Of a stretch of 22,737 nt of DNA, positions 20,330-22,737 are shown piece after piece (positions within the stretch are counted from its first letter, which is position 1; every line of letters starts with the position of its first letter). Location: IMG/VR virus record IMGVR_UViG_3300015371_000196, positions 1-22,737 of that record. One strand, 5' to 3'. The notes beneath the pieces are model-generated. The model was not told where the DNA came from and made no database searches. It worked only from the letters and a program-made list of their open reading frames with translations. The stretch comes from a virus. A program made the position numbers and the translations under genes.

Positions 20330-21334
20330 TCAAACGGTCTTGAACCAAATGTCACCATCTTGTCCCCCGGAAGGATCACTTGCGCTAACCGTGTAGAATT
20401 TCCTCACATAAAGTTTGCTATCTGTTCCAAGTGTGGCGAAGTTGTTTGCGTCGGTACTGATTGAGGTTGGTCCTGCTGGACCTTGCGCGCCTGTGGCTCC
20501 GGTGGCTCCGGTTGCTCCTGTCGGACCTGTTGCGCCAGTATCTCCCTTTGGCCCTGGAGAACCAGTCGCACCCGTTGCTCCAGTTGGTCCCTGAACTCCT
20601 TGCGGACCTTGAAATACAGTTCTATTCCAAGAAGAACCGCCCCAAATGTAGAGATAACCTGGATCGGCCGTAACGGAGTATGCGTCACCATTTACGTTTC
20701 CACTAGGAGGGAGATTTCCTACAGCCGCAACTTGGCCCTTGTAATTAATTCCAGTTCCTGCTGGACCTACCGGACCTGCGGGACCAGTTGGACCCGTTGC
20801 GCCAGTTGCACCTGCCGGACCCGTATTTCCTGTCGCTCCAGTTGGACCCTGAGCACCTTGTGGACCAGTTGGACCTGGATTTCCTTGAATTCCTTGCGGT
20901 CCGGCTGGTCCTTGTGTCCCAACTTCACCTTTATGGGCGTAGATTGCTTCTGCTTCTGACTGAGTGAGAAACTCTCCTACAACACCAATAGCACGAACCT
21001 CGGGGACTAGCAAATCCCTTACAGGCGTAGTTGCGGGACTAACTGGCAACGTATCTGGAACCCGGAACATGAATTGTCTGGTATTACCGCTTACCTTAGG
21101 AACGAATTCCTCGAGTTTGTAAAGTGTCCCCTCGGGAGTTATGTTGTCGTTTGTTTCCAGCGCCCCCTGCCACTTTCCATTCGAATCCGTGACAGTAGTT
21201 TCTACAGGGATGATTTCTGTGTCGTCTGAAATCCTGAACCCGTAGTTAGGAAAGAGTGAGATGGAAACTTTCACCCCGCTCATCGGGGAACCATCCAGAT
21301 CCTTGATCGTGTTCGTCACCAAAAACGTCGACAT
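20330..21334 (-). CDS. Collagen-like tail fibre (334 aa)
   Basis: ATG 21334 (GAGG 6 nt upstream) lies 89 nt inside the previous gene. The first ~100 residues form a beta-sandwich-like head ([20 protein letters not shown], then [20 protein letters not shown]), probably the virion attachment domain, so the long overlap is probably real. Two Gly-X-Y collagen-like blocks (139-193 and 243-289; mostly GPT, GAT, GPA and GPQ triplets) are separated by a compact domain ([20 protein letters not shown], then [15 protein letters not shown], 196-240), a module often seen in phage fibres. The C-terminal 45 residues ([20 protein letters not shown]) form the end domain. It most likely trimerises as a flexible fibre. 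Confidence 0.88.
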
Positions 21335-21998
21335 CCGGTGCCTCGATTGATTCTACAGGGATGAATTCCTGGGTGGGTTCTTTAGGGGGAATTTGGTTGT
21401 TCAGGATGGATTCCAGTTGCTCCGCAACGGCTAGCAACTCGGCCGGTGCGAGGTATTTAACCAGGAGTTCGAGGACCTGCGCCAGGATTCGTTGAAGATC
21501 GAATACCTGCGTGCTGGCCGGGGAATAAATCCCCGAGACTTCCATGTAGTACTTAATTGCGTTCAGATCGCTGTCTTGAACTAGTTTCACTAGGCCGAGC
21601 CTAGCATCAACGTCTGCGTTCCCGAACCGGGCAATAGACTCTCGTCGGAGGTAATCTTGGAACGCACTCTGTTTTTGCCACGCCTGAAATTGAGTGGTCG
21701 TAACGCCTAGTGTCGTCAACTTTTTTCTGAGGGTGTTGCGATCGTGAGTGTTCAACAAGATATTCGCTACAGCAAGTTGCATTGGGGTCAATAGACCCTT
21801 ATCGTTCTGTTTAACTGTCTTGTAATCCGGTAGACCTCTCGCTCGAAATGCATTTATGAAGTCTGTGCGGCGGAAAATACCCGCCAAATTTCTAAGAGAG
21901 ATGTTAAAGTGCTCTGCGGTCTTCTCTTTTGTGGGTAAGAGTCCCGTTTCGTAGTAATTTTGCTCGATGAAGGCCAAAACCTGCATTGTTTCCGGCAT
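21246..21998 (-). CDS. Terminase small subunit-like HTH protein (250 aa), first gene of the late block
   Basis: ATG 21998 lies 7 nt after a good -10 element, so the mRNA is probably leaderless; a second ATG at 21986 has a GGAAAC site. Two helix-turn-helix-like regions are visible: [20 protein letters not shown] (23-42) and a longer one with [20 protein letters not shown] (90-109) followed by [15 protein letters not shown] (111-125). Then comes [23 protein letters not shown] (138-160), a pattern typical of phage small terminases and phBC6A51-type HTH proteins. A helical oligomerisation-like region (167-200) and an acidic tail follow. It could recognise the packaging site or act as a late regulator. 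The terminase role is inferred, since terL is 5 kb away. Confidence 0.72.
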
Positions 21999-22003
21999 GG
22001 AGC

Positions 22004-22030
22004 ACAGTCTAGAGGTAAACTCTAGACTGT
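22004..22030. repeat. Perfect 27-bp inverted repeat over the late promoter (candidate operator)
   Basis: Arms ACAGTCTAGAG (22004-22014) and CTCTAGACTGT (22020-22030) are perfect 11-bp reverse complements around the 5-nt spacer GTAAA. The dyad covers the -10 element, the whole spacer and half of the -35, so a bound dimer would block the polymerase. The lack of a T-run argues against a terminator. Confidence 0.85.
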
Positions 22031-22033
22031 CAA
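22006..22033 (-). promoter_or_regulatory. Late-operon promoter (sigma70-type), leaderless
   Basis: On the minus strand, TTGACA (22028-22033), a 16-nt spacer and TAGACT (22006-22011) match -35 and -10 elements, with a perfect -35. The start codon of the HTH gene is 7 nt after the -10 hexamer, so transcription would begin at or next to the ATG. It is the only convincing promoter seen ahead of the ~22-kb leftward gene block. Confidence 0.75.
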
Positions 22034-22082
22034 GTGAAAAGTGAAATTAAACCTTTGGAATGTACCTCCAAATCTCGGTTAG

Positions 22083-22102
22083 GGACCACAAGGGAATGGT
22101 CC
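22083..22102. repeat. Small inverted repeat upstream of the operator array
   Basis: GGACCA (22083-22088) and TGGTCC (22097-22102) are 6-bp arms around an 8-nt loop. A purine run, AGGAGGGGG, follows at 22108-22116, but no well-placed start codon follows it. Role unknown. Confidence 0.4.
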
Positions 22103-22115
22103 GTCGCAGGAGGGG

Positions 22116-22127
22116 GAACAAACGTTC
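22116..22127. promoter_or_regulatory. LexA/Cheo-box-like site 1
   Basis: GAAC-AAAC-GTTC fits the Gram-positive LexA core GAAC-N4-GTTC, including the R-N-R-Y centre. It stands apart from the periodic sites. Just to the right are half-sites in the reverse order, GTTCG-ACCTA-CGAAC (22135-22149). Confidence 0.6.
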
Positions 22128-22160
22128 GTGGGCCGTTCGACCTACGAACATATGATCCCA

Positions 22161-22215
22161 TTTCCCACTTTATCTATAGGAAATCTCGAGATTCGTTTCC
22201 CACTAACCCGATAGG
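22161..22215 (+). repeat. Two copies of TTTCCCACT-N6-ATAGG, 35 nt apart
   Basis: TTTCCCACT starts at 22161 and again at 22196. In both, ATAGG follows after six variable bases (22176-22180 and 22211-22215). The 35-nt step continues into the 34-nt operator array on the right (next unit at 22231). Between the copies lies a perfect 12-bp palindrome, AATCTCGAGATT (22182-22193). The copies could be promoter or binding elements; they are absent from the coding part as far as I can see. Confidence 0.55.
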
Positions 22216-22230
22216 GATAGAATTAAATGC

Positions 22231-22344
22231 GAACACTCGTTCGGTATATACGTGAATGCGATACGAACACGCGTTCGATATACCCACGAATGATCGACGA
22301 ACATTCGTTCGGTACAGAGAATGTACCTGATCGAACAAACGTTT
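22231..22344. promoter_or_regulatory. Array of four LexA/Cheo-box-like operators, exactly 34 bp apart
   Basis: Sites GAAC-ACTC-GTTC (22231), GAAC-ACGC-GTTC (22265), GAAC-ATTC-GTTC (22299) and GAAC-AAAC-GTTT (22333) start exactly 34 bp apart. The first three extend to CGAAC-N4-GTTCG. Each is followed at offset ~12-14 by a TA-containing segment (GGTATATA, GATATAC, GGTACAG, GTAGG). A degenerate further copy, GAAT-N5-GTTC, lies at 22370-22382. The third unit also has the inverted repeat GGTACA-N5-TGTACC (22311-22327). The pattern suits a repressor binding in series between divergent operons. Confidence 0.75.
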
Positions 22345-22423
22345 GTAGGCCAAACGAATCATCGTGATCGAATAGTCCGTTCGGCCTATTCCTTCCGGGC
22401 CGAATCGGCGTAGCGTGGTCCCT

Positions 22424-22610
22424 GTCAGATCGAGTCCACGGCGGCCACGGCGAGCCGGACTCTGACGGGCGAGTTCACCCGGCTTCGGCCAAGAGCCAGT
22501 CCATTCGTGGGCGATCTTCGGATCGTGGCCACGGCGGCAGAACGGTGCAAGACAAAGGCCGTTCTAGTGCCAGTACCGTACTCCAGGGAGGATGGGCAAT
22601 CCCCTGGCAC
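22424..22610 (+). ncRNA. GC-rich structured leader or small RNA (candidate)
   Basis: This segment is much richer in G+C (43 of 60 bases at 22441-22500) than the operator array (26 of 60 at 22201-22260) and is full of stems. GAGTCC/GGACTC (22432-22437 with 22457-22462) is extended by GTCA/TGAC. CGATC-TTCG-GATCG (22512-22525) has a C(UUCG)G loop. AGAACGG/CCGTTCT pairs 22539-22545 with 22559-22565. CCAGG-GA-GGAT-GGGCA-ATCC-CCTGG is a hairpin at 22583-22607, and it competes with GTGCCAG/CTGGCAC (22567-22573 with 22604-22610). It ends 30 nt before the rightward start codon, so it may be the 5' leader of that mRNA or a separate RNA. No tRNA or known ribozyme core was found. Confidence 0.5.
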
Positions 22611-22640
22611 GACTTCCCTACGAAACGAAAGGTCTAGATC

Positions 22641-22737
22641 ATGGATGATCTGACATTCGAGTCGATCTTGGCAGATTGCGATCTGTCGATGATCGACTTC
22701 CTAGGTGATGGGGCGAATGACGCCTTCGTCAAGATCC
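22641..22737 (+). CDS. Start of a rightward gene, cut by window edge (first 32 codons)
   Basis: ATG 22641 has GAAAGG 8 nt upstream and an open frame to the window end: it begins MDDLTFESILADCDLSMIDF and continues LGDGANDAFVKI. The visible part is acidic and helical-looking; too little is present to assign a family. It is the first gene of the divergent operon controlled from the intergenic region, probably early or regulatory by position. The composition of this stretch differs from the GC-rich segment before it. Confidence 0.65.
   Translation, partial: MDDLTFESILADCDLSMIDFLGDGANDAFVKI

Follow-up and report, generated by a model that had tools for sequence, protein, structure and literature searches.

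What reads the evenly spaced dyads that lie between two divergent genes of this phage? The stretch of DNA that we analyzed (the window) is a virus record of 22.7 kb (22,737 nucleotides), and its control region holds four boxes of the form CGAAC-N4-GTTYG. We weighed LexA of the host as the protein that would bind them against a phage-encoded factor, as well as against roles of the boxes in packaging, replication, or RNA folding.

The phage and its control region

The leftward genes of the window are late genes, which encode TerL, a P22-like portal protein, SU10-like head proteins, endolysin domains, and a collagen-like fibre. The first of them, and the one nearest to the control region, is terS, and a gap of 642 bases (21999 to 22640) separates it from the divergent gene early1 (Table 1). 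A sister contig of 31,566 bp (G001), near-identical to the window (99.87% over the 7,489 bases compared), supplies the rest of early1 and further carries genes for a PD-(D/E)XK exonuclease, a Sak4-like AAA protein, a DnaB/primase-like protein, a family A DNA polymerase, and WhiB. Over the bases compared, it differs from the window at 10 positions. Four of these are in the control region, one of them within the degenerate box at 22145, and the four-box array is unchanged. The contig ends just past early1, and no repeat common to both ends of G001 was found. The early1 product matched no Pfam or PHROG family and nothing in the phage collection, and its predicted structure (mean pLDDT of 49.8) was too poor for a fold search. 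Nor were an Rfam family at gathering score or a tRNA found in the window, or DNA similar to positions 21200 to 22737 in named phages and plasmids.

Table 1. Features of the control region and its two flanking genes, in window coordinates
Feature	Position	Strand	Remarks
terS, terminase small subunit-like	21246..21998	-	phrog_24579 (terminase small subunit), E 2.3e-5; phrog_33113 (unknown), E 2.2e-6
Perfect 10-bp inverted repeat CAGTCTAGAG-GTAAA-CTCTAGACTG	22005..22029		spans -35/-10 of the predicted terS promoter
Predicted sigma-70-like promoter TTGACA-16-TAGACT	22006..22033	-	directly before terS; 1 found vs shuffle mean 0.7
Outlying box GGAACAAACGTTCG	22115..22128		one mismatch to CGAAC-N4-GTTCG, outer C changed
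L139-shared element, first copy (CGTTCG-CCTACGAAC and TTTCCCAC motifs)	22134..22180	-	local alignment score 46
Degenerate box CGAACATATGATCC (core GAACATATGATC at 22146)	22145..22158		two mismatches; 30 bp from the 22115 box
Box 1 CGAACACTCGTTCG	22230..22243		N4 score -0.18
Box 2 CGAACACGCGTTCG	22264..22277		34 bp from box 1; N4 score 2.30
Box 3 CGAACATTCGTTCG	22298..22311		34 bp from box 2; N4 score -0.01
Box 4 CGAACAAACGTTTG	22332..22345		34 bp from box 3; N4 score -0.01; within the L139-conserved element
L139-shared element, second copy (box 4, then TAGGCC and AAACGAATCA)	22332..22361	+	local alignment score 40
GAATAGTCCGTTC, GAAT-AGTCC-GTTC	22370..22382		5-base spacer; 37 bp from the previous site
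early1, start of rightward gene	22641..22737	+	269 aa, complete in L005

The best TerL matches were to Manatee Spring podovirus MW202795 (45% identity) and to Arthrobacter phages Brad, Adat, Jasmine, and others (42%), followed by Cellulosimicrobium phage DS1 (39%) and Microbacterium phage Shocker (35%); the uncultured phage genome G004 reached 51%. A nearer relative, L139, has a TerL 74% identical to that of the window; homologues of terS in L135 and L139 are 50% identical, and those of early1 in L139 and L142 are 33 to 35% identical. With a related TerL, a P22-like portal, and SU10-like head proteins in the window, and WhiB in the sister contig, the record is part of the genome of a distant relative of Jasmine, a podovirus of Arthrobacter. 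Since WhiB is encoded in G001 and the best TerL matches include, next to an uncultured phage, phages of Arthrobacter, Cellulosimicrobium, and Microbacterium, the host is probably an actinobacterium. A prophage search with TerL (E value of 1e-20, run without a positive control) gave no match in 396 genomes of the phylum of G006.

The four sites that a preliminary description of this DNA had reported, GAAC-N4-GTT(C/T) starting at 22231, 22265, 22299, and 22333, were confirmed, and their steps are exactly 34 bp; each begins one base inside a CGAAC-N4-GTTYG box. The 642-base gap has four such boxes, whereas 5,000 dinucleotide shuffles of it had 0.003 on average and never more than 1; the five occurrences of GAAC-N4-GTTY, against a mean of 0.034, were reached in none of the 5,000. 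These intergenic shuffles rule out chance or base composition as the source of the array, which is real and nonrandom. Across the whole window, GAAC-N4-GTTC with at most one mismatch occurs 16 times against a mean of 11.0, a mild enrichment that 6 of 100 shuffles attained; the signal is therefore a local cluster rather than a window-wide enrichment.

A repeat search grouped the first three boxes as one family (spacings of 34 and 34 bp). Spacers of adjacent 34-bp units are identical at only 11, 5, and 5 of 20 positions, so a simple tandem duplication was rejected and any duplication would be at most partial and old. The claim that such precise spacing means selection on position is sound as to the divergence of the spacers but unproven, given that exact 34-bp spacing does not exclude an old duplication free of indels. 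The core CGAAC-N4-GTTCG of the LexA, or Cheo, box is present in three perfect boxes, the fourth having GTTTG, but the outer T..A of the mycobacterial form, also invoked at first, is mostly absent. All six boxes, the degenerate one included, have a purine at N1 and a pyrimidine at N4, a rule (R..Y) that we derived here from the boxes of bacterial lexA arrays (below). The four array boxes are all A..C and point the same way, a pattern closer to what duplication or an asymmetric site would give than to a LexA array of mixed boxes.

Two further copies had been proposed. The one at 22116 is real but not isolated, as had been thought, because the degenerate box (core at 22146) lies 30 bp on. The other, at 22370, is probably outside the array: its spacer has 5 bases, and it does not keep the register. 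A direct repeat, TTTCCCACT....C.ATAGG at 22161 to 22180 and 22196 to 22215 (35 bp apart), adjoins the 34-bp array; its first copy is conserved, inverted, in L139.

Promoter signals in the region were sparse. The predicted terS promoter is not significant alone, because the shuffles gave a mean of 0.7; it lies 82 bp from the nearest box, and its transcript would begin almost at the ATG. The inverted repeat that spans it is likely a separate operator, as a candidate. The promoter scan found no consensus promoter beside the array, and the GC-rich leader from 22380 to 22640 folded no better than shuffles (z of -0.50; 60 of 200 shuffles as good). A terminator scan of the minus strand flagged box 1 and the second dyad of the box-4 element, 2 against a shuffle mean of 0.6, as would be expected if the boxes acted as RNA hairpins, for instance as weak terminators of leftward transcription to terS. 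We regard this as exceedingly improbable: boxes 2 and 3 went unflagged, the dyad stems have 5 to 6 pairs with few T, and the loop bases obey the R..Y rule of bacterial lexA operators.

Similar arrays in bacteria and in other viral contigs

A scan of bacterial genomes (one per species) for three CGAAC-N4-GTTYG boxes 30 to 40 bp apart returned 92 stretches, many of them titled Acidimicrobiia or other Actinomycetota, and 80 were examined. The array lay at most 300 bp upstream of lexA in 56 of the 80, namely in 52 of the 59 with R..Y boxes (at least 75% of the boxes being R..Y) and in 4 of the 21 others; many of the non-R..Y arrays are perfect repeats. NCBIfam models identified LexA in 8 of 10 neighboring frames tested and no family in 2. 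In the 41 lexA arrays identified first, 133 of 141 boxes were R..Y and 81 of 100 spacings were 30 to 36 bp, a range that includes the phage spacings of 34, 34, 34, and 30 bp. The paired pattern occurred in 41 of 148 genomes of one class, with no match of the reversed control pattern in any row; three genomes had it at one place each, again with no control matches. The LexA reading of the preliminary description is strengthened by the prevalence of R..Y arrays upstream of lexA and by the R..Y state of every box in the phage cluster; the binding protein may be host LexA or a repressor of the phage itself.

The individual boxes agree with this reference set to different degrees. The lexA boxes used for reference are, by record title, mostly from Acidimicrobiia, and the host may belong to another class. 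Measured against them, the N4 of box 2 is typical, whereas the scores of boxes 1, 3, and 4 fall between the 5% (-1.21) and 10% (0.84) quantiles. The N4 of box 1 was found in none of the 141 lexA-array boxes and in 5 of 127 viral clusters among the matches listed. The 14-mer of box 2 is identical in lexA-linked arrays of four loci, and that of box 3 in one lexA-linked array. Flanks of lexA boxes carry little information, and the flank scores of the array boxes were mixed (1.43, 1.52, -0.57, and -1.04).

Like the phage, lexA promoters of Actinomycetota, many of them from Acidimicrobiia, carry three to five boxes of the CGAAC-R-NN-Y-GTTYG type, mostly 30 to 36 bp apart with diverged spacers. Unlike the phage array, they lie upstream of lexA itself and mix their boxes and spacings (33/30/44 and the like). 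The phage array has three equal 34-bp steps, boxes that are all A..C, and terS and early1 as neighbors in place of lexA. Judged by this comparison, it has the operator layout of a lexA promoter but is not one.

Triple arrays with R..Y boxes were also found in 18 stretches of viral contigs, including G001, against 3 for the Y..R control. Only one stretch, again in G001, had the exact 34-bp triple pattern, the window's own record possibly lying outside the scan. The paired pattern occurred in at least 120 viral stretches against 68 for the reversed control; taken as clusters, 120 of the 127 among the matches listed were distinct, against 40 of 68. The raw pair count is a weak argument, and the R..Y share and the Y..R control are better tests. 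Among the matches listed, 268 of 305 sites in viral clusters were R..Y, against 9 of 159 for the reversed control, and 107 of the 127 clusters were R..Y at every site; the 20 exceptions include L018 and L099, with T..A boxes. In R..Y clusters, 41 of 109 spacings were 30 to 36 bp (P = 0.0003 in a binomial test against even spread), and in non-R..Y clusters 9 of 24 were (P = 0.07), again among the matches listed. This preference is no mark of R..Y boxes, because the non-R..Y clusters show a like share.

Searches for lexA near the viral arrays, in loci that are parts of contigs, gave no match in the 120 loci listed (two lexA queries, E value of 1e-5) or in the 18 triple-array loci (four queries, E value of 1e-3). 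The WhiB frame of G002 was matched in 5 of the 120 listed loci. The view that five or more sites in one control region are unusual was too strong, because other viral contigs have three to eight LexA-like boxes in a row. The longest such row, eight boxes 15 or 17 bp apart (L313:20-144), stands right before a 638-aa frame. Arrays of seven and three LexA-like boxes (L024:13045-13254 and L055:2228-2319) adjoin phrog_62 DNA helicase genes, and the early and control region of G002 likewise encodes a protein with a phrog_62 match.

In the sister contig, a single box, CGAACACCTGTTCG (L127:7427-7440), lies in the gap before whiB. By eye, it sits after a gene end within a longer GC-rich inverted repeat; because this repeat may be a terminator, the whiB-linked box was set aside as independent support for LexA and was not counted.

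A conserved element and rival binding factors

Local alignment with L139 revealed two copies of a shared element in the control region, mutually inverted and bracketing the three inner boxes. Their scores (Table 1) compare with a maximum of 28 in 1,000 mononucleotide shuffles. Positions 22116 to 22135 likewise align to the L139 element (score of 25; 0 of 500 shuffles as high), and the L139 sequence aligned to the degenerate box at 22145 is a complete dyad. The stretch with boxes 1 to 3 has no match to the element past the box itself (scores of 18 and 20; 110 and 24 of 500 shuffles as high). Because box 4 lies in the second copy and the stretch with boxes 1 to 3 has no wider match, it seems that boxes 1 to 3 were added between two copies of an element that is older.

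The control sequence of L142 is that of L139. Each has one box and no array, and the N4 of the box, ATAA, is outside the R..Y rule and scores -2.53 against lexA boxes. In the alignment of the window with L139, the outward dyad GTTYG-TAGGC-CRAAC keeps its symmetry, both arms being different. The early1 homologue in L139 (853 to 1671) runs in the direction of terS, opposite to the arrangement in the window, so that the control region is rearranged between these related phages.

These observations bring in the main rival to host LexA, a phage-encoded factor with LexA-like half-site specificity that would bind both the array and the composite element (box, TAGGCC, and third half-site) and time the divergent promoters, host LexA being uninvolved. 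Its gene would be either unannotated or located beyond the sequenced part of the genome. We hold this to be somewhat unlikely, although several features speak for it: the array boxes are all A..C in one orientation, three of the four have low N4 scores against lexA boxes, the L139-conserved element joins a non-R..Y box to a third half-site, and the second dyad stays symmetric in both phages despite the differing arms. A precedent is gp6 of phage GIL01, a phage-encoded LexA homologue (PMC6182141). On the other hand, bacterial lexA arrays share the R..Y rule and the spacing of the phage boxes. The LexA-like or helix-turn-helix repressor gene suggested at first did not turn up: five records of the phage group, all possibly incomplete, encode no Peptidase_S24/LexA-like or HTH_3 protein, and no regulator family was recognized among 17 proteins from the early and control region of G002, many of which match no family at all.

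The position of the array next to terS also raises the question of packaging, in which the terminase small subunit would bind the repeated dyads as a pac- or cos-type site. The terS homologue of Shocker is annotated as a helix-turn-helix DNA-binding protein, and a genome end could lie near, given that Jasmine, a podovirus, has 1,330-bp terminal repeats, which contain its leftward first gene (PMC5513430). This role appears very unlikely to us, since in L139 and L142 the early1 homologue follows the conserved box at a distance of 277 bp, and in L139 terS is about 1.7 kb away from it, so that the box stays with early1; the terS-proximal inverted repeat in L139 is, moreover, a different sequence.

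Evenly spaced repeats could also belong to a replication origin with iteron-like sites for a phage initiator, and by gene order the array is beside a gene that would point to the replication genes if the genome were circular or terminally repeated. We give this reading very little credence, as L139 and L142 have no array despite their homologous control element, no initiator gene was recognized, and the boxes obey the R..Y rule of LexA boxes.

More distant relatives offered few sites of this kind. GAAC-N4-GTTC is absent from the Jasmine genome and from the 42,421 bp of G004; DS1 and Shocker have a single occurrence each, within an annotated gene, and the 24.8 kb read of MW202795 contain one that is intergenic. 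The absence of spacing and dyads from related phages, which had been named as evidence against the LexA reading, was thus seen in part: the three cultured relatives examined (Jasmine, DS1, and Shocker) lack the array and any intergenic dyad, but L139 and L142 keep one dyad in the homologous element.

Host LexA as the candidate regulator and known systems

We favor, at about an even chance, the reading that the four boxes and the outlying pair at 22115 and 22145 constitute a multi-site operator for the LexA of an actinobacterial host. Dimers of LexA would sit next to one another on the CGAAC-N4-GTTCG dyads and cover about 115 bp, or about 230 bp once the outlying pair is counted. So bound, LexA would keep the rightward early1 gene low, and perhaps the leftward terS and late genes too, until its RecA-driven cleavage in the SOS response released the repressed genes. 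What we observe are the boxes and how they are spaced, the divergence of the two genes, and an arrangement that matches bacterial lexA promoters; binding by LexA, repression, SOS release, the genes controlled, and the host itself are what we infer. The core equals the LexA site of Bacillus subtilis, CGAAC(n)4GTTCG (PMC4551915), and is close to the consensus tCGAAC-N4-GNNCGa from Streptomyces ChIP data (PMC9380542).

A lysogenic switch gated by SOS would have no obvious lifestyle to serve here, because no integrase was found in the five possibly incomplete records of the phage group and the paper on Jasmine describes its Arthrobacter phages as primarily lytic (PMC5513430). It is conceivable, though rather unlikely, that a phage group with no detectable integrase or repressor adopted the layout of the host lexA promoter, either placing an early gene under the damage sensor or acting as a LexA sponge. 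As a sponge, many replicating genomes with multiple boxes would draw LexA off the chromosome and turn on SOS repair of the host, to the benefit of phage replication. The same strategy would then apply to the other 17 viral stretches that have lexA-like triple arrays and no lexA match in the DNA examined.

If host LexA does bind, a relative of phages described as lytic would read or manipulate the DNA-damage state of its host by way of an operator whose layout resembles that of the lexA promoter in the host. SOS-wired phages could then be sought in metagenomes by a simple sequence rule, namely R..Y boxes spaced by about 30 to 36 bp; 18 viral stretches matched our scan for R..Y triple arrays.

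Among open-licence papers, our searches found none whose title concerns arrays of several LexA boxes in actinobacterial podoviruses. A paper on actinobacterial tectiviruses, in which two Streptomyces phages were scanned for LexA sites, reports none (PMC6950372). Jasmine and its relatives resemble this phage in TerL (42% identity) and in having annotated WhiB-like, exonuclease, ATPase, and polymerase genes, and Jasmine also has a leftward first gene facing rightward late genes. Unlike this phage, Jasmine has no GAAC-N4-GTTC site and has an Lsr2-like gene in place of early1.

The closest precedent, by analogy, is the Bacillus thuringiensis phage GIL01, which does not integrate (PMC9700832) and in which host LexA and the phage protein gp7 bind dinBox1 and dinBox1b at promoter P1 and the tandem dinBox2 and dinBox3 at P3 (PMC4551915, PMC6182141). 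Like this phage, GIL01 has boxes of the CGAAC-N4-GTTCG type in its control regions, two of them at one promoter. It differs in having two boxes per promoter, with the P3 pair about two helix turns apart, and in its proven LexA binding and Bacillus host, whereas the present phage is Jasmine-like, has a probable actinobacterial host, and carries four candidate boxes at 34-bp steps.
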